This document shows positions 383 through 39,037 of a DNA stretch of 39,981 bases, piece after piece. The position numbers were made by a program, and so were the translations under genes. Each line of letters starts with the position of its first letter. Within the stretch, counting starts at the first letter, position 1. Below the pieces are notes generated by a model that had not been told where the DNA came from, did no database searches, and saw only the letters and a program-made list of their open reading frames with translations. This DNA is from an uncultured Planctomycetota bacterium (lineage in GTDB: Bacteria > Planctomycetota > Brocadiia > CAIUPP01): positions 1 to 39,981 of the forward strand of contig CAIUPP010000013.1 of NCBI GenBank assembly GCA_903901045.1. Direction: 5' to 3'.

Positions 383-2146
383 CTATTCAGGGCGGCCCGG
401 CTCTCCGAGATCCGGGCTGTTCCTGAACTCGACCCGCGGCGACCGGCTCCCATGCAATTCGAAGACCACCAGTTCGTTGTCCCCTAAGCGGAGCAACGGG
501 GCGGGAACGTGCAGCGTTCGCTGTGGACCAATGTCCCAGTAGCGACCCAGATTGAACCCGTTAAGCAGGCAGACGCCTTTGGTCCAACCCGGCAACGCGA
601 GAAACGTATCCGCCGGCCGGTCCACGACAAAGCGTCCCCGATAGAACGCCGGACCGGCAAGGCCGGTTCGTGTTCTCCATTGCACACGGGACAGGTCATC
701 CAGCGGCAGCGGGAAGATCGTCCAGTGGAAAAGGAACTGGGTGTCCAGTCGCACCCCCTCGGTAATGCCCTTCCGGTCGCACATTCGCGGCCCGTAGTTG
801 ACGCGCCCCATGTTCTCGACCAGGAGGTCCAACCGGTGGTTCCCTGGTGCAAATGCCAGCGTCAACGGGTCCTGCGTGGGGTTGCGGTCGACAAATCCCT
901 GGTATTCGCCATTCACGAAGACCTGCGCGCGATCATGGACCTCCTGCAACGCCAATGTCTGCGGTTCGCGCGGCCCGGTCACGACAGTGCGATATAGAAT
1001 GAGGCCGTGGGACTGGCCAAGCATTTCCATCGGCTCGGGCGAAATTCGGTCCACGGGAACAGAAAGCTGGGACAGGGTGTCGAAGAGAGGCGCTTCTTCC
1101 ACCATTTCCACGGGCCCGTATGCCTGCTTAGGGGCCGGTGCCAGCGCGGGCAGGTCGGGCAGTGGAGCGTACTTGCCGATCACTTGGCGAAACGCGTGGT
1201 ACATTTCAGTCGGGTCCCCGGCCTCGTTCAGAGGCGCGCCGTAGTCGTAACTGGTCACGTCCGGAAGATATTCCTTGCCGGTGTCGTTCGCCCCGCTCAT
1301 CCATCCGAAGTTGGTCCCACCGTGAAACATGTAAAGGCTGACGGAGGCACCCTCCGCCAGGATCGTGTCGAGCGCCTCGGCGGCCTCCTTGGCGTCGCGG
1401 TGGTGATGCGTCTTTCCCCAGACGTCGAACCAGCCGTTCCAGAACTCCCCGCACATCAGCGGCCCTTCGGGCTGGTGCTCGCGGAGCTTGGCGAACCTCT
1501 CCTTCGGGTTCGCGCCGAAGTTGGTCGTCTTCAAGAGGTTCGGCAGCGTCCCGCCCTGAAGCGCGGCGTCGCTCGCCCCGTCTGAGGTGAACAGCAGCAC
1601 ATCGATTCCGCGCCGTCGCATCCCTTGCTCCAGGTGGCGCATGTATTCCTTGTCGTTGCCGTAGCTGCCGTACTCGTTCTCCACCTGCATGGCGATGATC
1701 GGGCCGCCGCGGGAAGATTGGAGCGGCGCCAGCAACGGCAGAAGCGCGTCGAAATAGCGGTCCACCGCGGCGAGGTACGGGGGATAGCTGCAACGCAGCC
1801 GCATGGCCGGGTCCGACAGCAACCACGGCGGCAGCCCACCCAAGTCCCACTCCGCGCAAATATACGGGCCGGGGCGTATGATGACGCGGAGCCCCAGTTC
1901 AGCGGCCGTCGTAACGTACCGTGCAATGTCGAGCATTCCGTCGAAACGAAATGAGCCCGGGCGTGGCTCGTGCAGATTCCAGGGAACGTACGTTTCCACG
2001 GTATTCAAGCCGCAGGCGGCAAGCTTTGTGAGCCGGTCCTTCCAATACTCCGGGACAACCCGAAAATAGTGGATCGCTCCGGCAAGAATCCGCGTGGACC
2101 GACCGTTCATCCAGAAAGTGTTCTGGCGCGTAGTTAGAATACTCAT
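383..2146 (-). CDS. GH35 beta-galactosidase
   Basis: Predicted 587-aa retaining beta-galactosidase of glycoside hydrolase family 35, removing terminal non-reducing beta-galactose. The N-terminal TIM barrel carries the family block around IHYFRVVPEYWKDRL and ETYVPWNLHEP. The acid/base is the second Glu of VENEYG (about E158) and the nucleophile is the Glu of CGEFWNGW (about E234). The C-terminal third (about 400-587) looks like the jelly-roll domains of this family, with a late GFNLGRYWDIGPQ block. No signal peptide is evident, so a cytoplasmic location is likely. The ATG at 2146 is chosen because GGGAGAAG lies just upstream; an upstream in-frame start at 2215 would place the repeated leader sequence inside the protein. 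It is the last gene of the minus-strand block, 110 bp after a URO-D-like gene. Confidence 0.93.
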   Translation of the reverse strand: MSILTTRQNTFWMNGRSTRILAGAIHYFRVVPEYWKDRLTKLAACGLNTVETYVPWNLHEPRPGSFRFDGMLDIARYVTTAAELGLRVIIRPGPYICAEWDLGGLPPWLLSDPAMRLRCSYPPYLAAVDRYFDALLPLLAPLQSSRGGPIIAMQVENEYGSYGNDKEYMRHLEQGMRRRGIDVLLFTSDGASDAALQGGTLPNLLKTTNFGANPKERFAKLREHQPEGPLMCGEFWNGWFDVWGKTHHHRDAKEAAEALDTILAEGASVSLYMFHGGTNFGWMSGANDTGKEYLPDVTSYDYGAPLNEAGDPTEMYHAFRQVIGKYAPLPDLPALAPAPKQAYGPVEMVEEAPLFDTLSQLSVPVDRISPEPMEMLGQSHGLILYRTVVTGPREPQTLALQEVHDRAQVFVNGEYQGFVDRNPTQDPLTLAFAPGNHRLDLLVENMGRVNYGPRMCDRKGITEGVRLDTQFLFHWTIFPLPLDDLSRVQWRTRTGLAGPAFYRGRFVVDRPADTFLALPGWTKGVCLLNGFNLGRYWDIGPQRTLHVPAPLLRLGDNELVVFELHGSRSPRVEFRNSPDLGEPGRPE

Positions 2147-2262
2147 GGCGACTTCTCCCAATCTTTCTTCCTGAAATGCCTTAGAAACCCGGCTGCCCGC
2201 AAGCTGTCCGACCAACCCGGTGCCTTTGACAGTGCAAACTATCTCGAAAGGCGTAATCAGAG
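2144..2262 (-). repeat. Stop-to-start intergenic repeat, copy A
   Basis: On the minus strand this 119-bp segment begins with CTCTGATTACGCC, whose TGA is the stop codon of the upstream URO-D-like gene, and ends with the ATG of GH35. It aligns almost without gaps to 26792-26911 (copy B), which likewise runs from the stop codon of a prepilin-like gene to the ATG of an unrelated secreted protein. Well-conserved blocks include GTTTGCACTGTCAAAGGC, CCGGGTTGG and TTTCAGGAA, followed by a GGAGAAG-type ribosome-binding site. The strong hairpin of copy B is only partly preserved here. Confidence 0.75.
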
Positions 2263-3408
2263 CTGTCCCTGTCGGCTGTAGCCCCCGAGACCGAACATTC
2301 GCTCCTTCAGGTCAAGATAGTAAAGGTAGTCTTCCACTTTGACGTTGGGCGGGCAGCGATGGTCGCAAAAGGGGATGTAGCCGCCGCGTTCGACGAGAGG
2401 CACCAGCGTCTCCAGGTATGTCCGGATGGCTTCCTGTCCGCTGCCGAGGGCGATCTTGTCCACGCCCCCCATGATGCGCAGCGCGCCGTCATACTGGCGC
2501 AAGAGTGCGCCCGGATGGGTGCAGCCGTTGACCTCGAAGGGAAAGAGGCAATTGATGCCGCCTTCGATGAGCCCGGGGAGGATGGGGCGCACGTCTCCGT
2601 CGCAGTCGGTGTACCACAGGTCGATGCCGTGGGCATGGAGTTTCCTGCTGATGCGTTTGTAGCGCGGCACGACCACGGAGTTGAAGAACTCCACTGACAC
2701 AATGGGGCCGTTCTTGAAGCAGATGTCCTCCCACCCGCTGGCATAGTCGAAATCGAGCGGGTCCAACACCTGGTCGAGGAAGTCCTCCACCAGAAGACAA
2801 CTGGTCTCGACCATGTCCTCGACCATGTCGGGGTAGTCGTAGGTGGCGTAAGCCAGCCCCTCGAAGGTCAGCATGTCGCGGACCTTGCCGATCATGGAGC
2901 CGCAGGAGACGCCCAGCGGAAAATCGCGAGTGGGCGGGAAGAGTTGCTTGAGGTTCTCCACATCAACCTTCCGGGCGGGATCGTCGCGCCGGAACCGCTC
3001 TTCCTTGACCCGCTTCCAGTCCTCGGGCGTTACCACACTGGGACGGGTGAAATGTGGGATCGTGTCGTGCCGGTCCTTGGGAAGCTCCGCGAGCAGGCCG
3101 TCCTCATTCTGGATGGTCAGAGTGTTGGAAGTCTCCCGAACCACCTTGTGCGGGAACGGCGGATTCATCCATACTCGGCCCCCAACTGCGGCCATGCGGT
3201 CGAAATTGAAGAATGCGTTGGCGTCACTTTCGTTCGTAATGCCGTTCTCCACGAAGAGCGGCCATTCGCGATAATTCTCCTCCCAATAGCCGAACTCCAT
3301 GTTGAAACATCGGTCCACGGGCTGATAGTGCATCTGGCGATTGAAACGCTCGCGGTCCGTCATCTTCCCGGCCCACTTGGGACGGAAGGGGGTGATGACT
3401 CTGCTCAT
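2257..3408 (-). CDS. Uroporphyrinogen-decarboxylase-like protein (URO-D superfamily)
   Basis: 383-aa protein of the URO-D/methyltransferase superfamily (PF01208-like TIM barrel). It opens with the typical MTDRERFNRQM..QPVDRCF block. It is not expected to be a haem-pathway HemE; family members also include corrinoid- and coenzyme-M-related methyltransferases. It shares an unusual set of motifs with the paralogue at 10863-11948: GWEDICFKNGP (225-235), TDCDGD (267-272, where methyltransferases carry the HxC zinc motif) and IPFCDH (345-350) followed by PPNV. The ATG at 3408 is preferred for its GGAG nine bases upstream; ATG 3423, one base after the preceding stop, is possible. It lies between the GH78 remnant and GH35. 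Substrate unknown; a role in processing a modified sugar is inference from context. Confidence 0.8.
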   Translation of the reverse strand: MSRVITPFRPKWAGKMTDRERFNRQMHYQPVDRCFNMEFGYWEENYREWPLFVENGITNESDANAFFNFDRMAAVGGRVWMNPPFPHKVVRETSNTLTIQNEDGLLAELPKDRHDTIPHFTRPSVVTPEDWKRVKEERFRRDDPARKVDVENLKQLFPPTRDFPLGVSCGSMIGKVRDMLTFEGLAYATYDYPDMVEDMVETSCLLVEDFLDQVLDPLDFDYASGWEDICFKNGPIVSVEFFNSVVVPRYKRISRKLHAHGIDLWYTDCDGDVRPILPGLIEGGINCLFPFEVNGCTHPGALLRQYDGALRIMGGVDKIALGSGQEAIRTYLETLVPLVERGGYIPFCDHRCPPNVKVEDYLYYLDLKERMFGLGGYSRQGQL

Positions 3409-3424
3409 ACGCCGTGACTCCATT

Positions 3425-3796
3425 TCATACTGAATGTATTGCCTCGAATCCGTCGGAAGTGAACCGGTATATACCGTAACCGACCTCAAATACTGCCGTC
3501 TGGCCCTCTTCCATTCGCGCATATCGGACGCCTCTGCTCTTGACAACCGGCTTGCCGCTTTCGCGCACGTCTGCTGGGTTCCTCACTGGAATTAGTACTG
3601 TTGCGATCGTATTAGCTGGAATGGGCACTTTGGAACGGAGAACCCAATTCAGTCGCGGTCTTGATATGTCTACGCCCAACGGGCTCGTGCGGTATTCATC
3701 GCCGCACGAAAACGGCCGCGTGTGGTCCAGTGCGTATTCGCCATAGTTCAGCTTCCACGTACATTTGTCAAGAAGAATGACCGAATGGACAGTCAT
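3425..3796 (-). pseudogene. Collapsed GH78-type alpha-L-rhamnosidase (N- and C-termini joined)
   Basis: The 123-aa frame is open, but its parts belong to the two ends of a much longer enzyme. Residues about 34-55 (DEYRTSPLGVDISRPRLNW) match the N-terminus of bacterial alpha-L-rhamnosidases, where the consensus is EY..NPLGID...PRLSW. From residue 56 the sequence jumps to VPIPANTIATVLIP and later EVGYGIYRF, which match the extreme C-terminal beta-sandwich of the same family (IPANTTATV...EVGSG.Y.F). The roughly 800 central residues, including the (alpha/alpha)6 catalytic barrel, are missing. The junction is near base 3631 and is in frame. The ATG overlaps the region just after the 35-codon remnant upstream, and the stop sits one base before a downstream ATG. 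The segment is less GC-rich than its neighbours, consistent with drift. It cannot be catalytic. Confidence 0.7.
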
Positions 3797-7471: not shown

Positions 7472-10420
7472 TTAGCGCGCCGCCGCTTCGACCAACGGCT
7501 TGAGGTCTTGCGCTTTGACGGCCACGACGTAGTCCATACGGTACTTCGTGCTCCATGTCTGTCCCGCTTTCAGCGGCTGCGCCCGGTACATCCATTCGAT
7601 GCTGACGGTCTTCTGGTCCGGACCGCACCAGCTATGGAACTGCGAGACTTCCGGAGCCTCGACCTTGCAGACCACGGCGTCGTCACCGGCCGCGTTGTAC
7701 TGGGCGATCCAATTCCCAGTGGTGGCGCCGGTCCGGCCGGTTCGCTCAATATCTTCATTGCCGGGCGACATCGGTTCGTTCGGCTTTGCCCAGTAGACGT
7801 CCGCTGCCGGCGCCTTGGCCGGCCCGGCGGCCGTCTGCATGTAAACCTCTTGCACCATCTCCCTGGCAGCCGGGATATCGGCCGTGAAGAACATGTGGTG
7901 CGCCCAGAAGGCAAAATTCACAGCCGGAGCCGGCCCGGGGTTTTCCACCGTCACTTCAACTTCGATGCCCGGCTGGGTTTCACGAATGCTGATTGTCTTC
8001 GTGACAATCAGGTTGCTGAGCGCCGCCGTCGTCTTCTTCTGCCGGAGAGTCAGATAGGCAACGCCGCCATGTGCCGAACCGGATACTACTTCATAGGGCA
8101 TAATCTCGTCGCCGGACCACATCGCGCCGGTGGGAACCCAGAAGAGATCCTTACCGGCGCCTCCGTAGAAGTCGAAGGCATTCTTGATCGGATCCGCATT
8201 TTCCCGGATCAAGTGCCAGCCGACAATCCGGCCGCCTTTGTTCGGCCGGACTTGAACTTCCTGCCAGGGACTTTTCATCGAAATGCCGACCTCGTTCCCG
8301 ACCATGGTCCTCGTGATGGAGAGTCCCCCTCGTTCGGCCAGTTTCTCGGCCCTCACGTCGGGCTTGCAGTATTGAGCCAGCGCCTTCTCGCAGCTTTCAA
8401 GGCTGACGCTGTTGGCCGCCCGCGGGGCGTCTTTGGCGGGTTCCACCATGAGGAGCGTAACGCCGTATTGCGGCGGCGTCCTGATCACAACCCCCTTGGC
8501 CAGGCGCGCCGATGAAACCGTGCAGGACTTGGCGTCCTCCCAGAAGTTCGTCTGCTCGCTCACATCCGTCACGCGATACTCGCCCTGCGGAAGGCCCATA
8601 CAGGCTACGCGAGCGAAGACCTCCTTGTCGGTGTTAACGTTGATGATCCCCACCAGCCGCGTGTTCCCATTCGCGATGCATCGGTGGAGGACGCTGGCCT
8701 CGAAATCGGGGACGCTTATCCGGCGTTCTTCCTTGCCAACGGTCATGAGTATGTGGTGCTCGGGAATGAAGGCGATGGTCACCCCGGCGGGGTCTTTCTG
8801 CCCGTCCAGGATAATGTCCTCAAGCCGGCTGATTTCCCGGTTCGTCCGCGCGATCCAGGAGAACTGGCGCGCGCCGAATTCGCACATAAACATGCCGTAT
8901 CCCCTGGCGCCGCCGAGGAGCGCCCCCCAGACGAAGGCGCGCAGCGCTTCGCCCGGGTCTCCGCCTCCGCTCCCCAGGTAGTAGTCCCGCGCCTGCCCCC
9001 AGAAGAGCGGCTCCAACGGAACCGCCACACGCGGCGCGATGGCCCGCGACCAGATGAAGGCATCCTTCACCTGCTGCACGCCGTGCTCGTACCACATGGG
9101 GTACATTACGTCCATGATTTCCTGGAAACGGCGGGTGGGATAGGGGTTCAAATAATAGGTCATTCTTCCCGCCTCGTCCTTCCCGACTTCGATCATGTCC
9201 GACATGACACTGTTGTCGTTGGTCATGACCTGTTGCGGCAGCGCCCCCAACCTGACGGTCGGGTTGGCGGCCTTGGCGACGTCGTGGAACAACTTGTGAA
9301 CGGCCAGCGTCTGTTCGGCCCGGAAATCCCCCCATTGCGTCCGATGCTCCGCCCATATCTTGGCCGGGGTCAACGCCGCGGCGTCCAACCCGAACCGCGC
9401 GGCAAACGCCCTAATCCCCGCCGGAGAGAACCCGTTGTCCCAATTCGCGTTCCACTCGATATCCTGCGATACGACCTCTTTCCCTAGCGCAAAATTGCGA
9501 TAGTTCTCAATGTCCCCGGCCCACGGCTTTCCCTTTTCGTCCAGGATCCATTGCAGGTCAGTGTCGTACGGCCAACCGCCGGTGGCTATCGGCCTCCCAA
9601 GATGGTCCTGATTCCGGTAGTCGGGGTTGTCGGTCCTGGCGTTCTCCGCGGCGGGAAAGCCGGTGATCCCGGCCTGGTCGCCGACGATTCGCATCCCCTT
9701 CTCGCGCGCGGCAATCAGAGATTCGGCCGTGAGTGCCCCTGCGACCAGGTCCGTAACGCCCACCCGCTGCAGGAACGCCAGAACCGGCTCCAGCTTGGCC
9801 GGCGAGATCCTGACGTTGGAAGGAGCCCAGAGCCTCACATGAATTCGCTTCGGCTGCTGCGTTTCCAGCGGCATCGGGAGCAACTGGATGGGCGCCACCC
9901 TTTCCGCTTCCACACCCCACGGCGTGACGAAATGCCATGCAAAAACGCCAGGGGCCGCGCGGTCCGCCGGCGTGGGCCTGGGAACCCACGTGCTGTAGAG
10001 GACCTCCCATCCTATCTTGACCTGAACCGCACTGCGGAACAGGCCCTTGAACTGGTATCGCTTGTACGGTTTCCCGTCCCGAGTCACGTCGCTGACGACA
10101 GGCGCATGCATCGCCGGGTCAAACTGGTCCGTGGCGTCCAACAGGTCCACATACGCGGGGACTTCGACGACAGCCGCCCACTTGTCGGAATCCTCCGGAG
10201 TGACTTTGGCCGCGTCGGCTAGCGGATAGCATAGCTCTTCGAGATTGGGCGCGCCGTCAATGAGGTTGCAGGTCATCGCCTCGTCGCTGACGGGAAAGAC
10301 TTTCGATCTGGGCGCAACTTCCTGCGCGACTGCAAGGCCCACGCCGAAGCAGCACAACAGCGCGACTGACAACCACTTTTGCGAATGCGTACCCAACGAC
10401 ATCTTGCTTTGCGCCCTCAT
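7472..10420 (-). CDS. Secreted 982-aa protein of unknown family (paralogue A)
   Basis: Not assigned to a named family. Residues 1-33 form a signal peptide (basic start, hydrophobic WLSVALLCCFGVGLAVA, AQE junction). The protein is collinear over its whole length with 22046-24994, which is also 982 aa. Shared blocks are VVEVPAYVDL, PGVFAWHFVTP, QDIEW (DIEW 320-323), GFSPAGIRAFA and WGDFRAEQ, then a C-terminal part of about 300 residues that resembles a galactose-mutarotase-type supersandwich. The middle (about 200-560) looks like a TIM barrel, and DIEW offers conserved acidic residues, so a periplasmic glycoside hydrolase or lyase is plausible but unproven. RBS AGGAGGAG lies seven bases before ATG 10420. 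It sits between an ASRT-family protein and the MFS transporter. Confidence 0.75.
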   Translation of the reverse strand: MRAQSKMSLGTHSQKWLSVALLCCFGVGLAVAQEVAPRSKVFPVSDEAMTCNLIDGAPNLEELCYPLADAAKVTPEDSDKWAAVVEVPAYVDLLDATDQFDPAMHAPVVSDVTRDGKPYKRYQFKGLFRSAVQVKIGWEVLYSTWVPRPTPADRAAPGVFAWHFVTPWGVEAERVAPIQLLPMPLETQQPKRIHVRLWAPSNVRISPAKLEPVLAFLQRVGVTDLVAGALTAESLIAAREKGMRIVGDQAGITGFPAAENARTDNPDYRNQDHLGRPIATGGWPYDTDLQWILDEKGKPWAGDIENYRNFALGKEVVSQDIEWNANWDNGFSPAGIRAFAARFGLDAAALTPAKIWAEHRTQWGDFRAEQTLAVHKLFHDVAKAANPTVRLGALPQQVMTNDNSVMSDMIEVGKDEAGRMTYYLNPYPTRRFQEIMDVMYPMWYEHGVQQVKDAFIWSRAIAPRVAVPLEPLFWGQARDYYLGSGGGDPGEALRAFVWGALLGGARGYGMFMCEFGARQFSWIARTNREISRLEDIILDGQKDPAGVTIAFIPEHHILMTVGKEERRISVPDFEASVLHRCIANGNTRLVGIINVNTDKEVFARVACMGLPQGEYRVTDVSEQTNFWEDAKSCTVSSARLAKGVVIRTPPQYGVTLLMVEPAKDAPRAANSVSLESCEKALAQYCKPDVRAEKLAERGGLSITRTMVGNEVGISMKSPWQEVQVRPNKGGRIVGWHLIRENADPIKNAFDFYGGAGKDLFWVPTGAMWSGDEIMPYEVVSGSAHGGVAYLTLRQKKTTAALSNLIVTKTISIRETQPGIEVEVTVENPGPAPAVNFAFWAHHMFFTADIPAAREMVQEVYMQTAAGPAKAPAADVYWAKPNEPMSPGNEDIERTGRTGATTGNWIAQYNAAGDDAVVCKVEAPEVSQFHSWCGPDQKTVSIEWMYRAQPLKAGQTWSTKYRMDYVVAVKAQDLKPLVEAAAR

Positions 10421-10476
10421 GACGACTCCTCCTGTCTTGTTTTGTTTCCTGCAACAGCTTAAGCGCCAGCCTGAAC
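10352..10476 (-). repeat. Leader plus signal-peptide module, diverged copy
   Basis: On the minus strand the 56 bp before ATG 10420 (with TTCAGGCTGGCGCT, AAGCTGTTGCAGGAAACA and a GGAGGAG ribosome-binding site) align with the second half of the repeat at 26792-26911. The similarity continues past the start codon: about 49 of the first 69 coding bases match those of the unrelated LamG-like gene at 26794, including ATG and TGGTTG..GTCGCGCTG. The encoded signal peptides align as M..Q..M..G..S..WL.VAL.C.F. Counts are by eye. Confidence 0.55.
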
Positions 10477-10851
10477 TTATTCACAAAAACCGACGCCGAC
10501 ATAATACGCCATGTTCGCCTGTGTCGTATCGAGGCGCCCGAATTGTGCGACGAGCGGCCGGTCCGATTTGACGCGAAGGGCATACTGAGTCAGGGGGGGA
10601 ATGACCGTACCTCCGATCTCATCCGGATGATCCAACCGAAGGGTGCGGACCCGCTCCGCTTCCACGTTCGTGGAAATGTCATGGATCGCGGGCCTATCCG
10701 TAAAGTAAAAGCTTATTCTCACATTGGCCGGTTCATTTCCGGTGTTGAGGAGCATCAGGGCCTCATGCGCCTCCATTTTGCTGTCGCCGGTTTTCGCCGG
10801 GAGGTAACCGTCAGGGAAGTACCACGTCTTTGCGCCACCCTTTGTCTTCAT
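10477..10851 (-). CDS. ASRT-family (sensory rhodopsin transducer-like) protein
   Basis: 124-aa soluble protein matching the Anabaena sensory rhodopsin transducer family (PF07100-like). It contains KTWYFPDGYLPA, MEAHEALMLLNTG, ISFYFTDRP, AERVRTLRLD and the closing VAQFGRLDTTQANMAYY. The length is right for this beta-sandwich domain, which has been proposed as a general small-molecule, probably sugar-binding, module. No rhodopsin gene is nearby, so light signalling is unlikely here; a sugar-sensing or binding role fits the locus (inference). ATG 10851 is preceded by AAGGGAG. It lies 11 bp after the URO-D-like gene and 56 bp before the secreted 982-aa gene, in one direction with both. Confidence 0.8.
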   Translation of the reverse strand: MKTKGGAKTWYFPDGYLPAKTGDSKMEAHEALMLLNTGNEPANVRISFYFTDRPAIHDISTNVEAERVRTLRLDHPDEIGGTVIPPLTQYALRVKSDRPLVAQFGRLDTTQANMAYYVGVGFCE

Positions 10852-22045: not shown

Positions 22046-24994
22046 CTATGGCGCGGTGGGTATCAAGTGCGCGGGAATGTCCGAGGGTTTGACATCGGCC
22101 ATGTACCGCAGCAGATATTTCGTGTTCCAGCTCTTGCCTACGTCCAAGCGGACCGCTGGACACATCCATTCGAGGGTCAGTTGGTCCATAAGGCCGACAT
22201 CGGTGTATCGGTAGGAACTGAACTGGGTCACGGAGGGGGTCTCGACCTGGCACAGGATCATCTCACCATTGTCGGGGTTGCGCTGAGCAATCCAGTCGCC
22301 CGTCGTCTCGCCGCAGCGCGTGGCCTTCTCCCAGTCCTCCTGCCCCGGCGTAATGGGCGCGCCCGGCTTGGCCCAGAGGATTTCAAGCTTGTCCTTGGGC
22401 ACGAGCGCGACCCCTTTGGCTGTCTGAAGGTACACTTCGGGACAGTCCGCCAGCGTGTTTCCGGGGACGGGATTGGGCCCGAGATGAAAGACGTGGTTCG
22501 CCCAGAAGGCGATCTGCATGGACTTGGCGGCGTTCGCGTTGGTCACTTCGACCTCCACGAACACGTCGGTCCCTTGCTCCGGCACGATGTACTTCTTGGT
22601 GATCACCAATCCGCCGACTTGCGGCGGCTCCTTGAGCACGTGCCGGAACTCCAGCCAGGCGCATCCGGCGTGGACTGATGCGGACACCAGTTCGTAGGGA
22701 GCCCACACTTGCTCGCTGAAACGCATATCCGTTGGAACGTAGAAAATGTCTTTGGCCACTCCGCCTTCACGGCCCCACCAGCCCGACTCGACCACCGTCC
22801 TGTTTCCGTGTTTGATCCGCCACTCCTCGATCATCGCTCCGTGGTCAGGCCGGATCCATATCTGCTGTGCACCGCAGTCCACGAGAATCGCCTTCTGGCC
22901 TTTGATGATCTCTTCGCGCACCGAGATGCCGCCGTGCTCAGCCAGAACGGCGCCTTCGGCATCCGGCTCGCGGTACTTCTCATAAGCCTGCGCCGCCGCG
23001 GCGGCGGGCTGGCGGGTCCAGTGGTCGGGCAGCGCGCCGGCGGCGGGGACCCGTTCCACAAGGATTGCGGTGACGCCCATGCGCGCGGGGGTCGTGACGA
23101 CGACGCCCTCGGCCAGTTCCTCGGCGCTGAACAGGTCCCGCTTCTCAGACGGAACGAGGAGTTGTTCCTCGCACACCAGCAGCGCGCGATAGTCGCCCTT
23201 GGGGAGGCCCGTGAACCGGACCTTGGCAAAGAGGTCCAGTCGCTCGTCCAAGTTGATCATGGTGGCCAGGCGTTGTTCTCCCAGCTTGTAGGTTCTCCAC
23301 ACGGTATTCGCAGCAAAATCGGGCTCGACCAGGGCCGTCTTCCGACCATCTTTGATGGTGGAGAAGGTCCGCTTGGGCATGAAGGTGACGGAGACATCGG
23401 ACACGTCCGGCATCCCGTCCAGCAGAATGTCCTCGACGCGCGCCAGTTCGCGCGAAGCCCGCGCCAGCCAGGACAACTGCAGAGGGCTGAACTCGCACAA
23501 CCAAAAGGCGTACCCCTTGGTGCCGCCCAGGACGCCGGCCCACGCGTTCGCCCGAAGCGATTCCTTCTCCATGGAGTAGGGCAGATAGAACTCCCGGCTC
23601 TGGCCGCTATAGAACGGAACCACGTCCACCTTGACACGCGGGGTCAGCGCCTTGGACCAGTTGAACGCGTCGCGCGCCTGGTCCGCGCCGGGCCCGTACC
23701 ACATGGGGACGATGAAATCAGAGCACTCCTGCAACCGGTCCAGCGGATAGCCCAACGCCAGATACTGCGGCCGGCCGACCTGATCTTTGCCCAATGAGGC
23801 CAGGTTCGACATGAGATTCTCATCGGATGTGATCGTCGTCTGCGGACAGAAGCCGTAACGCACGTTGGGGTTTGCCTTCTTTGCAGCCTGATAGTAGAGC
23901 CGCATGCAGAGCAGGAATTGCTCGGCCCGGAAATCGTTCCATTGCTTGCGGTAGTCCTTCCAGATAATCGGCGCGGTCAGCTTTGCGGCGTCGAGGTTGT
24001 TCTTTTTCGCAAAAGCCCGAATGCCCGCGGGCGAGAAGCCGGAATCGAAGAGCCAACTACCCCATTCGATATCCTCAATCACCACCTCGCACTGCGGGGT
24101 CGGCCAGCTGGCAGCAGCGGCCAAGTCCTTCTTCCACGGTTCGCCTTGAGTGTCAATGATCCACTGGAAGTCCTGCTTCCCATGGTCGTCGGTCCCCCCA
24201 AGCGTCGTCGGCTCGCTACGGCAATTGAAGTCCTTGTAATCGGGCTCAGGGCTGGGCGCCGACCATCGCGGCAACTCAAAGCCGCCGCCGATTCGGATTC
24301 CTTTCTCGGACAGGTGGCAGGTGCGCAGTTCATCGGGTTCCCCGGTACAGACCACGTTGAATCCCGCGCGCGAAAGCAGTTTCATCACGGGTTCGGAATG
24401 TCCCTTTTCGACATAGGCGAATGCAGAACACTGGTCGAATATGACTGTCAGGCGCTTGCACGGCGGCACGGCCGGCAGCTCCGGAAGGAGTCGAATGGGG
24501 TATTTCTGCTCCGGTTCCGTCCCGCCGGGAGTGACGAAATGCCAGGCGAAGACGCCGGGTTGCCGCCGATCCGCCTCGGTGGGCCGCGGAACCCACTGGC
24601 TCCAGAAGAAACCCGACCAGTTGGCGAAATAGGCGGCATGGCTCAGCGGGGGCGGAAGTGTGTATCGCCGGTACGGACGGCCATCACGCTCGATCTCTTC
24701 GACTTTCCGCACGGCCGTTCCGTTCGAGCCGGTGACGAGGGAGACCAGCTCGATGTAGGCGGGAACTTCGATGACGGCGAGGAAGTTCTCTGTAGCGGCT
24801 TTCGGCGCTTTCGCATCCGCGGGACAAGCGAAGTGCTCCACGTTCGGAAGGTTTTCGATCATCCAGGCAACGTGGTCGTCGCTGACGGGCCATACCTTCG
24901 AGACGGCCTCGCGCCCGGCCTCCGCCGCCTGCGCCGCGCCTGAAATGCAGACCGCCAGAAACAGAACGCCACAGAGCAACAGGTCCTTTCTCAT
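22046..24994 (-). CDS. Secreted 982-aa protein of unknown family (paralogue B)
   Basis: Full-length paralogue of 7472-10420. The signal peptide MRKDLLLCGVLFLAVC ends near AAQAAEA (about residue 24). Shared blocks are KVWPVSD, VIEVPAYIEL, PGVFAWHFVTP, IEDIEW (E310 in DIEW), GFSPAGIRAFA and QWNDFRAEQ, with a C-terminal mutarotase-like region containing QIAFWANHVF. The identity is clear but moderate, so the duplication is old or the copies have different substrates. ATG 24994 has AAGGTGAG a few bases upstream; a GTG at 25003 is possible. It precedes GH2 by 42 bp. A periplasmic carbohydrate-active enzyme is the best guess, with no family name to offer. Confidence 0.75.
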   Translation of the reverse strand: MRKDLLLCGVLFLAVCISGAAQAAEAGREAVSKVWPVSDDHVAWMIENLPNVEHFACPADAKAPKAATENFLAVIEVPAYIELVSLVTGSNGTAVRKVEEIERDGRPYRRYTLPPPLSHAAYFANWSGFFWSQWVPRPTEADRRQPGVFAWHFVTPGGTEPEQKYPIRLLPELPAVPPCKRLTVIFDQCSAFAYVEKGHSEPVMKLLSRAGFNVVCTGEPDELRTCHLSEKGIRIGGGFELPRWSAPSPEPDYKDFNCRSEPTTLGGTDDHGKQDFQWIIDTQGEPWKKDLAAAASWPTPQCEVVIEDIEWGSWLFDSGFSPAGIRAFAKKNNLDAAKLTAPIIWKDYRKQWNDFRAEQFLLCMRLYYQAAKKANPNVRYGFCPQTTITSDENLMSNLASLGKDQVGRPQYLALGYPLDRLQECSDFIVPMWYGPGADQARDAFNWSKALTPRVKVDVVPFYSGQSREFYLPYSMEKESLRANAWAGVLGGTKGYAFWLCEFSPLQLSWLARASRELARVEDILLDGMPDVSDVSVTFMPKRTFSTIKDGRKTALVEPDFAANTVWRTYKLGEQRLATMINLDERLDLFAKVRFTGLPKGDYRALLVCEEQLLVPSEKRDLFSAEELAEGVVVTTPARMGVTAILVERVPAAGALPDHWTRQPAAAAAQAYEKYREPDAEGAVLAEHGGISVREEIIKGQKAILVDCGAQQIWIRPDHGAMIEEWRIKHGNRTVVESGWWGREGGVAKDIFYVPTDMRFSEQVWAPYELVSASVHAGCAWLEFRHVLKEPPQVGGLVITKKYIVPEQGTDVFVEVEVTNANAAKSMQIAFWANHVFHLGPNPVPGNTLADCPEVYLQTAKGVALVPKDKLEILWAKPGAPITPGQEDWEKATRCGETTGDWIAQRNPDNGEMILCQVETPSVTQFSSYRYTDVGLMDQLTLEWMCPAVRLDVGKSWNTKYLLRYMADVKPSDIPAHLIPTAP

Positions 24995-25205
24995 GCCTCT
25001 CACCTTTTCATTCCGAACAAAAGGAAACAGAAGAGCGACCGTCTATCGGGACAGGGCCAGGAACCTCTCCATGAATTGCTGGACGGCTCCCTGTGCAACG
25101 TGTGAATGAACCATTCGGATTCTATTTCAGCATGGCCTTCGAATCCCACGCAATCTCTCCGGCAACCCCTCAGGTGCGCCGTTCGCTCGATCAGCCGCCG
25201 AGTGA

Positions 25206-26044: not shown

Positions 26045-26794
26045 CTACTCAAGCCTTTCGTTCGCGAAATTGTCAATGCTTCCGATGAAGGGCTCGTTGA
26101 ACGCGTTCCCTTTTGTCGTTTCGTCATACCTCGCAAAGTTGCCGATATAAGCCTGATCGGCTGCATTGACAAGCAAGGTCGTTGTGCTCTCCGTTGAAAA
26201 ATCTTCCACCTTGTCGTCAATCAGCAGGACGTCGCCGTCGGCCCCATAGTAGAGGTCGAAATGATGCCATGCCTTCAAGGCCACCGGAGCAGAGGTCAGA
26301 TTGCGGTAGCCGTTCCCCATCGAGATGCTGGCGTATACTTCTCCTTTGACAGTGAATAACATAGCCATTTTGGTGTTGCCACCGGTACCGACGCTCAAGA
26401 GACAGCAGGCTTGCCCAACACCCGGGAGTTCAACCGGATAGAAGTCAAACGATATGTGGGCTTTGGCGGGCAGGTAATAGGGTATGTAGACGTGGCTTAT
26501 CGGGTCGGCGCCCTTGGGGAACACGAGGGCCTTGTGCTTTTCATCTGCGGCATCTTTCCCCGGGCCGAGCGTCGTAGAACCAAACAGATCTTGCTTCTGC
26601 TTGGTTGCAAAGTCTTCCTTCCAGGCGGTGATCACCTTCATCGCTTTGAACTTTGCCACAAGCGCCTTGGCCTGCTCATCGCTCCGGGCGTCGGCGAAAA
26701 CGCGCACTGGCAGGAGGGAGAAGACGCACATCAGCGCGACCGGCAACCACCTTCGCGAACGCGGCCCAAACAGCATGCTATCCTGCGTTCCCAT
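26045..26794 (-). CDS. Secreted LamG/concanavalin-like protein
   Basis: 249 aa with a signal peptide (RSRRWLPVALMCVFSLLPV, cleavage near VFA at 34). The mature part fits a LamG/concanavalin A-like jelly roll: ISFDFYPVEL, a central VGTGGNTKMAMLF, then WHHFDLYYGADGDVLLIDD, and the closing FIGSIDNF, a common ending of this fold. Such domains bind sugars or mediate adhesion and are often non-catalytic. ATG 26794 follows AGGAG eight bases upstream, and a start further upstream would run into the repeated leader. It lies between the prepilin-like gene and the zinc-ribbon gene. Its leader and signal peptide resemble those of the unrelated gene at 7472-10420. Confidence 0.7.
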   Translation of the reverse strand: MGTQDSMLFGPRSRRWLPVALMCVFSLLPVRVFADARSDEQAKALVAKFKAMKVITAWKEDFATKQKQDLFGSTTLGPGKDAADEKHKALVFPKGADPISHVYIPYYLPAKAHISFDFYPVELPGVGQACCLLSVGTGGNTKMAMLFTVKGEVYASISMGNGYRNLTSAPVALKAWHHFDLYYGADGDVLLIDDKVEDFSTESTTTLLVNAADQAYIGNFARYDETTKGNAFNEPFIGSIDNFANERLE

Positions 26795-26911
26795 GTCGTC
26801 TTCTCCTAAATCCTGTTTCCTGAAACGCCTTCGGCGCCAGGTTGACCGTGCGTTGTCCGGCCAACCCGGCGCCTTTGACAGTGCAAACAAACTCGAACGG
26901 CGTAATCAGAG
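26792..26911 (-). repeat. Stop-to-start intergenic repeat, copy B, with strong hairpin
   Basis: 120-bp counterpart of 2144-2262, running from the prepilin-gene stop (TGA in CTCTGATTACGCC) to the LamG-gene ATG. It holds a hairpin at 26833-26873: two 16-base arms (GGCGCCGGGTTGGCCG and CGGTCAACCTGGCGCC on the minus strand) around a 9-base loop, fully paired in minus-strand RNA with two G-U pairs. No U-run follows the stem. The distal end carries AGGAGAAG as ribosome-binding site. Confidence 0.75.
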
Positions 26912-28324
26912 TCCGTCCACTCCCACGTCGATGCCGGACGCCGTGTCAAACCTGTGCCAGATCATCGCCGATCCATTCCCATGACTGATGTTTTCAGGCC
27001 AGCTGTTATAGGTGGCGAAGCTTGAGTGATCAACACCTGCGACGGAGCCCCAATCAACAATGTTGGGCAGCATCGTGCCGGCAGCCCATGAATAGGAGCA
27101 GTTCATGTTCCACCATATGATCTGCTGCTGCGCGTCGCCATACCACTTCGCCGAGGCGTCGCCATACAGGACGTTGTAGCCGTCGCGATGCCCATACCAC
27201 CCCTCTCCGGGCCAGTTGTTGCCGCCGTTGTTGGCGGAGAAGGATGTCGGGCACCAGAGGCCGTTCCGGCTGAACGTGTCGCTCACGATCGCGCGGCCGC
27301 CGAGCTGCTTGTCCGTCTTGAACATAGGCTCGCCGGCGTACACGACGCGGTTCGGCTTGGCCCCCAGCAGTCGCACCCAGGCGGGGCCATCGTAAGCCGA
27401 GACGCCTTGGCCTATCGAAGCTTGAGACGCCATCAAGCGGTAGTTATAGCTGCATTCTATGCCGACATAGGGGCCGTACGTATTGTTGTCTCCCCAATTG
27501 CCTGTCGGAGCGGAAGCCACGGGGTAGGCCGCATGCATGACCGAGTGCGGATCGAGGTTGCTGAATTTGCGTATTTCACTCAACGTGCTCAGCGCCTGGG
27601 TGTAGGCGCCGCCTGCATAACCATTGCCTGTAGTGTAGTGGGAGTTGATACCGGGCGGATACGCCCAGTCGTCGCCCATGTTGGATGCGGTCGGACAAAA
27701 GAAGGCGCTGATGTCACCGAAATAACCTGCGGCCGCCAGTGTGCCCAAGCCGATCGGACCCAGGTTGAGGTCGCCGGCCACCATCACGTTGGTGGTGTCA
27801 TAAGGAGACCCCACCGACAGGTAGGTTTGATGTTTCTGCCCGACGAAGATCGTTCGATAATTGCGCATGGAGTCGAGCCATGTGCCGTCGTGTGTGGAAG
27901 GGGCACACGTGTAAGTGATGCCGGTGAAGCCGGGGGCTTTCCCCGCCAACTGCGGCTCCGTGTATACGCCCCACTCGGCCCAGTCGGTCGCCGCGCCGGT
28001 GTAGATGATGGTGTTGAACCCAGTGGGGGCGTAGATTCCCCCCTTCGTGGAGTCGGTGTAAATCGTGCCCGTTGCGGAGTTGATGTTGCCGGTCGGGGTC
28101 CCCCAACCCGGCCAGGATGGGAAATAGCCGCTGTAGTCACCGGTGTAGGAGGCCAACGCCACCGACATCTGCTTCAGGTTGTTCAAGCACGCCGTGCGCC
28201 GCGCTTTCTCTCTTGCCGCCGCCAGGGCCGGCAACAACATCCCGGCCAAAATAGCGATAATAGCGATAACGACTAACAACTCGATCAGCGTGAACGCCGA
28301 CAACCATGCCCGACAGTTCCTCAT
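26906..28324 (-). CDS. Prepilin-type protein with GxxDG-like C-terminus (DUF1559-like)
   Basis: 472 aa. The N-terminus has a short leader then [20 protein letters not shown], the type IV prepilin/type II pseudopilin methylation motif with the conserved Glu at +5, followed by [20 protein letters not shown]. The large exported domain ends with [20 protein letters not shown], the H-x-DG signature widespread in PVC-group pseudopilin-like proteins. It should be processed by a prepilin peptidase and exposed at the cell surface. Many such proteins are encoded beside carbohydrate genes in these bacteria; a binding role is suspected, not proven. ATG 28324 has GGAAGGGAGG upstream. It is 25 bp downstream of the regulator gene and may be cotranscribed with it. 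Confidence 0.88.
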
Positions 28325-28349: not shown

Positions 28350-29498
28350 TCAGACCGCCGGAACACCCGACGACGCCCGAACCACTAGTTGCGGAAACAC
28401 GTGGGGACGGACCGCTTTTTCGCCGCGGAGGCGATTCACAATGTAGTTAACGGCTTCCTCTCCTTGCTGCGCAAAATAGCGCTCGACGGTTGTCAGCGCA
28501 GGGATGCTTCTCGCAGATTCCCAACAGTTGTCGGATCCGACAACCGACATGTCGCCAGGGACACTCATCCCGCGCGCTTGCAGAAGGCTGAGCACCAGCA
28601 GGGCTCGCGCATCGTTGTTGCACAGGATCGCCGTGGGCCGCGGGGAACGCGACAGCAGAATATCCAAGGCCCTGACCGTGTCTTCAGGACCGTAACTCTC
28701 CGAGTGCAACGCTTCCACGTAGAGATAAGGGTTCGGTTCCAGTCCCGCGCGAGAGTAAGCCCGCAGGTAGCCTTGGCGGCTGCCCCACGCAACGGACCGT
28801 TCGACCGACGCCGAATCGGTGGGCATCGGCAGATTCAACAACGCGATGTCCCTGTGGCCCAAAGCGAGAAGGTGCGTCGTGGCCTGCTCAAAGCCGCAGT
28901 CGAGGTTGCATTCGACAAAGGGCAGATTTGTCTCTCCCGTCGCCATGACGACGCAGGCTGGAATATCACGCTCGATCACCTCCTGGGCAACGACGCCAAA
29001 ACCATCCGCCTCGTATGCGTGGTCAAAGAAGAGCACGCCAAACCGCGACTTTGTGTAGTGCTGCAGCCTGAACTCCGCTCCATTGGTCAGCGAATGGAGC
29101 CGCGCGTGCCGCCGTTGCACACCGTGTGTTATGCCGCGCAGCCATTCGACCCCTCTCCAGTTATGGCCGTCGAGAAACACCGGGTTAATACAGAGGACGA
29201 TTTCCAGGTCAACGGCCATCTCGGCAATCGGCGCTACAAACGCCCCGGAATTCGTCCGCGTGACAATCATGCCTTCGTCTCGAAGCATCTCGAAGGCTCG
29301 GGCGGCTGTGCGTATGCCCACGCCGTATTCCCGTGCGATCTCTCGCACCGTCGGCAGTTTCGTTCCTGGCGAGAGCTGCCGATCCTTAATGATGGTGACA
29401 AGGTCATCGCGAATACGGTTGCTCAAGGGTACGCGCGACTGTGGATCCGTCGGGCGCTTCATGTCGGCCAGTAGCACGCGTGTTGAACTCACGGTCAT
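28350..29498 (-). CDS. GntR-headed transcriptional regulator with LacI-type sensor domain
   Basis: 382 aa. A GntR winged-helix domain occupies about 20-90 (PLSNRIRDDL, LPTVREIAREYGVGIRTAAR, LRDEGMIVTRTNSGAFVA). A periplasmic-binding-protein-like sensor domain of the LacI/GalR type follows (LALGHRDIALLN, PTAILCNNDARA, MSVVGSDNCWESARSIPALTTV). This AraR-like combination usually makes a sugar-responsive repressor. ATG 29498 follows GAGAGGC. It is transcribed divergently from the Gfo/Idh/MocA gene, and repeated GTATC sites lie in the space between, so it probably controls both blocks and itself. Confidence 0.9.
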   Translation of the reverse strand: MTVSSTRVLLADMKRPTDPQSRVPLSNRIRDDLVTIIKDRQLSPGTKLPTVREIAREYGVGIRTAARAFEMLRDEGMIVTRTNSGAFVAPIAEMAVDLEIVLCINPVFLDGHNWRGVEWLRGITHGVQRRHARLHSLTNGAEFRLQHYTKSRFGVLFFDHAYEADGFGVVAQEVIERDIPACVVMATGETNLPFVECNLDCGFEQATTHLLALGHRDIALLNLPMPTDSASVERSVAWGSRQGYLRAYSRAGLEPNPYLYVEALHSESYGPEDTVRALDILLSRSPRPTAILCNNDARALLVLSLLQARGMSVPGDMSVVGSDNCWESARSIPALTTVERYFAQQGEEAVNYIVNRLRGEKAVRPHVFPQLVVRASSGVPAV

Positions 29499-29507
29499 CG
29501 CCTCTCG

Positions 29508-29559
29508 GTATCTGTGAATGTGCGCGCGTATCTATGAATTTTCACTTGTATCATTGTGT
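29508..29559. promoter_or_regulatory. Three direct GTATC sites at 20-bp spacing (candidate operators)
   Basis: GTATCTGTGAAT at 29508, GTATCTATGAAT at 29528 and GTATCATTGTGT at 29548 are direct repeats with exact 20-bp periods. They lie between the divergent regulator and oxidoreductase genes, and the third overlaps the predicted -35 box of the plus-strand promoter. This is the arrangement expected of cooperative repressor sites read on one face of the helix. Confidence 0.5.
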
Positions 29560-29575
29560 CTCTTTATGGTAATAT
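29546..29575 (+). promoter_or_regulatory. Predicted sigma70-type promoter of the right-hand block
   Basis: TTGTAT (29546-29551) and TAATAT (29570-29575) are separated by 18 bases, a good match to a housekeeping promoter, reading towards the Gfo/Idh/MocA start at 29694. Transcription would begin near 29582. It lies in a locally AT-rich stretch within a GC-rich region. Confidence 0.5.
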
Positions 29576-37906: not shown

Positions 37907-37936
37907 AAACACTCGCAACTGTTGGAGACCATGCCC

Positions 37937-39037
37937 ATGGACACGCCGAAGACATGCCCCTTCCACCGAGTTCCACCGCTTTCACTTAAGCCGGACCTGC
38001 AGGACGCTGCGAGACGATGGGACGCGTTCTATGCGGGCGAACTGATTGACCGGCCCGTGGTGTGTGTTACGGCGCCGCGCAATGGCGCATGTAACGCAGT
38101 TCCTCCCTTGCTCACGTATCGTGACAAGGCGTTTGGCAACGTGGATACGGTGTTACTGAGCGCCTTGGCCGGCGCGGAAGCCACCTATCACGGTGGCGAG
38201 GCAGTGCCGGCATTCTTTCCGAGCCTGGCCGCGGATGAGATTGCCGCCTATATCGGTGCGGAGATCAGGTGGAGTCCCGACTCGCCGGATACGAACTGGT
38301 CTGTTCCTTTCGTGCGAAACTGGGAACAGGCCCTGCCGCTTCGAGTTCAGGAGGATAATCCACTATGGCAGCGCGTGCTACAGCTATACGTGCGCGGCAG
38401 CGAACTGCTCGAGGGAAAGATGCTATTGGCCCCACTGGACTTCCACTCGAACATGGACTTGCTGGCGGCGGTTCGCGGACCGGAACAGTTATGCATGGAC
38501 CTCGTCGAGCAGCCCCAGGCGGTTGAAGAGGCGATGAAGTCCGCGCGAGCCGTATTCCCTGTTCTCTGGCAAAAGATCACGCGAGCCGGGAAGATGTCAG
38601 AACGCGGATATTGGCAATATATGTTCTCCATGGACGGGGCCGCGTTGCTCTGCTGCGATTTTATCGCCATGATCAGCCCGAGCATGTTCAAACGTTTCGT
38701 CCTCCCTGCGCTGGAAGAGGAAGCGGCGATGGTGAAGAACGTATTCTTTCATTGGGACGGTCCGGCCGCGCTCGTACATGAACCGCATATTCTGTCGAGC
38801 AAGGCGTTCTACCTGCTGGAGTTCGTGCCGGGCGCAGGCTCCGGGGGATACATGGCCTATCTGGAGCACCTGAAGCGGTGGCAGGCGGCCGGCAAGGCTG
38901 TCTGGGTTGAAGGGACGCCCGAGGAAATCAAAGCGCTGCATGGCGAACTGTTGCCACAAAGGGTGGTGTACTCGACGCGCGCCGCATCAGAGAAGGACGC
39001 CGACGAATTGCTTCGCTGGTTCGTCAGACACACATAG
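37937..39037 (+). CDS. Uroporphyrinogen-decarboxylase-like protein, third copy
   Basis: 366 aa, more distant from the two other URO-D-like proteins in the window. It has RRWDAFYAGELIDRPVV near the start and FSMDGAALLCCDFIAMISP, FHWDGP and LEFVPGAGSG in the barrel, the positions where the family has its metal and substrate loops. The DSDGD and CDH motifs of the other two copies are absent, so substrate probably differs. ATG 37937 has GGAG nine bases upstream; ATG 37931 and a TTG at 37922 are alternatives. It ends only 7 bp before the transposase frame, so the insertion lies immediately after this gene. Confidence 0.72.
   Translation: MDTPKTCPFHRVPPLSLKPDLQDAARRWDAFYAGELIDRPVVCVTAPRNGACNAVPPLLTYRDKAFGNVDTVLLSALAGAEATYHGGEAVPAFFPSLAADEIAAYIGAEIRWSPDSPDTNWSVPFVRNWEQALPLRVQEDNPLWQRVLQLYVRGSELLEGKMLLAPLDFHSNMDLLAAVRGPEQLCMDLVEQPQAVEEAMKSARAVFPVLWQKITRAGKMSERGYWQYMFSMDGAALLCCDFIAMISPSMFKRFVLPALEEEAAMVKNVFFHWDGPAALVHEPHILSSKAFYLLEFVPGAGSGGYMAYLEHLKRWQAAGKAVWVEGTPEEIKALHGELLPQRVVYSTRAASEKDADELLRWFVRHT

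Follow-up and report, generated by a model that had tools for sequence, protein, structure and literature searches.

The genes for a GH35 hydrolase and a LamG-like protein in one gene cluster are preceded by homologous leaders (copies a and b), and this homology extends from stop codon to start codon. The leader of the LamG gene is also homologous to a third, partial copy (c), from mid-leader through 27 codons. All these similarities are confined to a 40-kb contig (C13), the whole of which is the window, i.e. the complete stretch of DNA analysed (39,981 nucleotides). We favor, with a probability of roughly 0.6, the explanation that the repeat is a 5′-leader module of one catabolic cluster, and that local duplication and rearrangement inside this cluster gave rise to its copies. 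The leader repeat is an unusually clean instance of an ordinary process and not a new element family. It offers a clean case of unrelated cluster genes gaining common expression signals via copied lead-in DNA, with one pair also gaining a secretion signal, and bears on the assembly of polysaccharide and sugar-use clusters.

Homologous leaders of two unrelated genes

Copies a and b are located on the minus strand at the positions given in the initial annotation (Table 1). Alignment of the two copies over 120 columns showed an identity of 80%, somewhat higher than the three quarters that had been roughly estimated, and a single-base gap corresponding to the one-base difference in length noted before. 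The local score of the pair is 120 compared with a maximum of 28 among 1000 dinucleotide shuffles, and the genome-wide DNA search returned the match with an E-value of 1.4e-23, confirming that the copies are homologous beyond chance. Pfam supports the assignments of the flanking genes as URO-D-like, GH35, prepilin-like and LamG-like. The GH35 and LamG proteins have no match to each other, although their leaders are so similar. The description of a cassette with a leader and a ribosome-binding site between unrelated gene pairs thus agrees with the homologous stop-to-start DNA observed here. A GGAG-type site lies close before the ATG in all three leaders.

The repeat had been described as spanning exactly from stop to start. 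Its 3′ end is indeed sharp, with the ATG as the limit of similarity. However, the similarity on the 5′ side ends ~3-9 bases upstream of the TGA, where a common CTC is followed by GGAC.G with a one-base gap. The differences between the copies are unevenly distributed, with 5 of 58 columns differing in the 5′ half and 19 of 62 in the 3′ half (p = 0.003 for a split at column 58 that was picked after the alignment was seen). Judged from the two sequences, this uneven divergence suggests constraint on the 5′ half, or its later exchange.

Table 1. Coordinates of the leader copies and their component features
Feature	Position	Strand	Evidence or remark
Copy a, leader of the GH35 gene (383-2146)	2144-2262	-	80% identity with copy b, 120 columns
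Copy b, leader of the LamG gene (26045-26794)	26792-26911	-	80% identity with copy a, 120 columns
TGA of the URO-D-like gene (2257-3546)	2257-2259	-	5′ end of copy a
ATG of the GH35 gene	2144-2146	-	3′ end of copy a
TGA of the DUF1559/prepilin-like gene (26906-28324)	26906-26908	-	5′ end of copy b
ATG of the LamG gene	26792-26794	-	3′ end of copy b
Ribosome-binding site GGGAG, copy a	2155-2159	-	read from sequence
Ribosome-binding site AGGAG of the LamG gene, copy b	26803-26807	-	read from sequence
Ribosome-binding site AGGAG, copy c	10429-10433	-	read from sequence
Inner hairpin of copy b, possible RNA structure	26833-26873 (arms 26858-26873 and 26833-26848)	-	RNA fold and pair counts
Stretch of copy a matching the inner hairpin of b	2184-2224	-	
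Partial copy c, 56-bp leader of gene 7472-10420 and its first 27 codons	about 10340-10477	-	homologous to the 3′ half of b and the LamG signal-peptide codons
Signal-peptide codons of the LamG gene	26714-26794	-	homologous to 10340-10420 in gene 7472-10420

A partial copy that includes a signal peptide

The third, partial copy, missed in the initial annotation, precedes gene 7472-10420 and has a small gene of 124 residues as its upstream neighbor. The match between b and c begins in mid-leader, crosses the ATG and extends over the first 27 codons, which encode signal peptides starting with MGTQDSMLFGPRSRRWLPVALMCVF and MRAQSKMSLGTHSQKWLSVALLCCF. The DNA local score of this pair is 68, compared with a maximum of 33 in 3000 shuffles. 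At the protein level, the match of the LamG protein with the product of gene 7472-10420 is confined to residues 1-27, and the proteins are otherwise unrelated. Copy c starts inside the a/b repeat and ends inside a gene, so that its ends differ from those of a and b. Possessing only the 3′ half and continuing into coding sequence, it breaks the stop-to-start rule whose generality the initial annotation had proposed to check.

A structure-aware model of the repeat (R1) gave a weak match in the window at 10418-10457 (E = 0.39), pointing to c. A sequence model of the b/c part (R2) recovered all three copies (a, b, c) without any other notable match in the genome. The DNA search queried with c missed b, whereas R2 recovered it; thus, further weak copies may escape detection.

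Copy number and distribution

The searches proposed in the initial annotation were run in the genome itself (4.77 Mb, 154 contigs) and in its relatives. The DNA search of the genome found only a and b as full copies, and a pattern built from the 35 best-conserved bases, allowing up to three mismatches, returned the same two. The only strong matches of R1 were a, b and the mirror image of the hairpin of b. Searches of 74 other genomes belonging to the class and of phage and plasmid collections were negative for the repeat, and they yielded no genome with an intermediate or an empty site. The new repeat family suggested previously is therefore disfavored. 

In a 1.04-Mb sample of the genome, with the window included and crude ORF calls, the a/b leader is the only one with a ribosome-binding site that is common to non-homologous genes, besides the matches of one dispersed repeat family. 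Weak matches in C37 and in other genomes were rejected as chance similarities (19-32 bp, E-values of 0.002-0.14 per genome). On realignment, the best of them covers 27-57 bases in one stretch only.

Gene cluster and proposed copying of the leader

The genes from 383 to 29498 are all on one strand, frequently with short gaps. They include the GH35 hydrolase, two URO-D-like proteins, a regulator with GntR plus LacI-type domains according to Pfam (28350-29498) and, by reading, a transporter-like protein. A third URO-D-like gene is located on the plus strand at 37922-39037. Comparisons within the cluster showed two pairs of paralogues, the products of genes 7472-10420 and 22046-25003 (37% identity over 972 residues) and the URO-D-like proteins UROD1 and UROD2 (30% identity over 360 residues). 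Local duplication is therefore seen in genes as well as in leaders. The former two genes, both on the minus strand, encode proteins of ~980 residues that have no NCBIfam match; the product of 22046-25003 also had no match in a Pfam scan of this paralogue.

The protein encoded by gene 7472-10420 has no homologue in 18 related genomes, and its family has no match in IMG/VR. Its sole further relative found in the GTDB collection comes from a genome of Candidatus Zipacnadia (L099, 44%), and the leader of this relative shows no similarity. The LamG protein has no relatives in the other species' genomes searched. Because relatives of these two proteins were not found in the related genomes searched, old co-inheritance is not separable from recent copying.

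The copied module would consist of intergenic DNA, a strong ribosome-binding site and a start codon, with the signal peptide added in the b/c pair. Ordinary recombination or segmental duplication would have copied it, and different downstream genes would afterwards be read from homologous leaders. The junctions of the module probably fall at stop and start because other boundaries would damage genes. Within the co-directional gene strings the leaders would act as translation-initiation regions, and the conserved 5′ half together with the upstream hairpin may insulate or stabilize the downstream message. Of the mobile or recombining cassette proposed before, the recombining part is retained, as some recombination must have placed the DNA. 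However, mobility of the repeat is disfavored by two full copies and one partial copy within ~25 kb of one contig.

Possible RNA structure of the leaders

Alternatively, the repeat could be a structured cis-regulatory RNA (a hairpin leader, a processing or stabilizing element or a riboswitch-like element) that is common to co-regulated genes of the cluster and kept by selection. Folding of copy b gave a long nested hairpin far more stable than those of shuffled sequences (z = -3.9), whereas copy a showed no advantage over its shuffles (z = -0.7). Both sequences are compatible with one set of nested helices, with 28 of 28 pairs in b and 24 of 28 in a, including one double change between A-U and G-C. 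Retention of the pairs somewhat exceeds that expected for randomly placed changes (p = 0.03), but it is at the chance level when substitutions are kept at their real positions (p = 0.35). The check for conserved stems suggested in the initial annotation thus gave a result that depends on the null model, and base pairs do not appear to be clearly conserved between the copies beyond chance. The 3′ arm of the hairpin is far more altered than the 5′ arm, and the greater number of differences in the 3′ half is not what two equally constrained arms would show. Furthermore, the 5′ arm is entirely absent from c, and the Rfam search returned no family for the window at the gathering cut-off and no notable one for a or b at a relaxed cut-off. 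A structured RNA kept by selection is therefore a rather unlikely explanation of the repeat.

Copy b resembles a over its whole length, most closely in the 5′ half, and resembles c in the 3′ half and the signal peptide. It could accordingly be viewed as a mosaic in a cluster whose genes swap 5′ modules (leader, ribosome-binding site and optional signal peptide) as units, with the module carrying a structured RNA that tunes translation downstream. We regard this combined scheme as speculative and distinctly improbable.

Possible operator, mobile element or peptide

The repeat might also serve the GntR-LacI regulator of the cluster as a DNA operator or promoter region, copied for co-regulation. 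The longest invariant run (columns 24-41) contains TTTG-N6-CAAA, which we take to be the outline of an AraR operator, and the domains of the regulator would be compatible with such a site. However, the motif shows no enrichment in the window (8 found vs. 10.3 expected when one mismatch is allowed). It is also missing from the promoter of the regulator itself, where different direct repeats with a spacing of 20 bp are found. In addition, a scan of copy b for the sigma-70-like consensus gave no promoter match. These results make a copied operator very unlikely.

The direct repeats at the regulator gene are three in number (GTATCTGTGAAT, GTATCTATGAAT and GTATCATTGTGT; 29508-29560, plus strand) with an exact 20-bp spacing, and are flanked by a sigma-70-like promoter (29599-29571, minus strand) on one side and the regulator's start on the other. 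They are a possible autoregulatory operator.

Insertion of a small MITE- or REP-like mobile element with a ribosome-binding site between genes would be in line with the imperfect inverted ends CTGATTACGCC and GGCGTTTCAG that flank columns 2-93 of the repeat, and with the abundance of other dispersed intergenic repeats in the same genome. However, the homology of a and b goes beyond the inverted end as far as the ATG, and c begins within the supposed element and finishes within a gene. The copies thus lack a common pair of ends bounded by target-site duplications or terminal inverted repeats, and inspection of a and b by eye showed no bounding pair of the integron attC cores RYYYAAC and GTTRRRY. 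Together with the two full copies on a single contig and none in the other class genomes, phages and plasmids, this leaves such an element highly improbable. A conserved short peptide on the plus strand, antisense to the flanking genes, can be practically dismissed, as the one plus-strand frame open in a as well as in b (24 of 33 residues alike, 6 of 15 codon changes synonymous) has substitutions spread evenly over the codon positions (7, 7 and 6) and the remaining five frames have 20-22 of 33 residues alike.

Comparison with known systems

Putative mobile promoters, or promoter propagation, reportedly described by Matus-Garcia and colleagues in 2012, involve similar sequences immediately in front of non-homologous genes of a single genome, as do the leaders reported here. 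However, the leaders have 80% identity rather than near-identity, are local to one cluster, and show no recognized sigma-70-like promoter in copy b. They also reach the upstream stop codon and bridge a short interval between co-directional genes of a string. The 2012 work (doi 10.1093/nar/gks787) is cited in PMC4596501 and PMC5906472. REP, ERIC and MITE sequences share with the repeat the intergenic site, inverted repeats and a similar length. In contrast to them, the repeat has only two full copies on one contig, includes a ribosome-binding site and start codon, and has a third relative that extends into coding sequence.

Horizontal regulatory transfer (Oren et al. 2014, doi 10.1073/pnas.1413272111; cited in PMC5906472) reportedly concerns strains that differ in carrying alternative regulatory regions for one and the same gene. 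It resembles the present case in that intergenic regulatory DNA is replaced or moved apart from the gene it drives, whereas the copies described here precede different genes within one genome.

Other repeats of the genome

A dispersed intergenic repeat of ~57-94 bp, unrelated to the leader repeat, occurs at L094:14068-14161 with copies in L067, L031, L081 and L068 of the same genome. This family has the inverted-repeat core GTGGGGACACAA..TTGTGTCCCCAC and was found at many places in the genome sample. A second dispersed repeat, ~130-150 bp long and containing short hairpins, is located at L085:481-630, with copies in L050, L057, L086, L045, L081 and L048. Several of these copies are at contig ends, which suggests that this repeat breaks the assembly. 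Within the window, a 55-bp intergenic stretch at 158-212 has copies in the same genome at L034:8537-8591 (89%) and L075:11356-11410 (82%).
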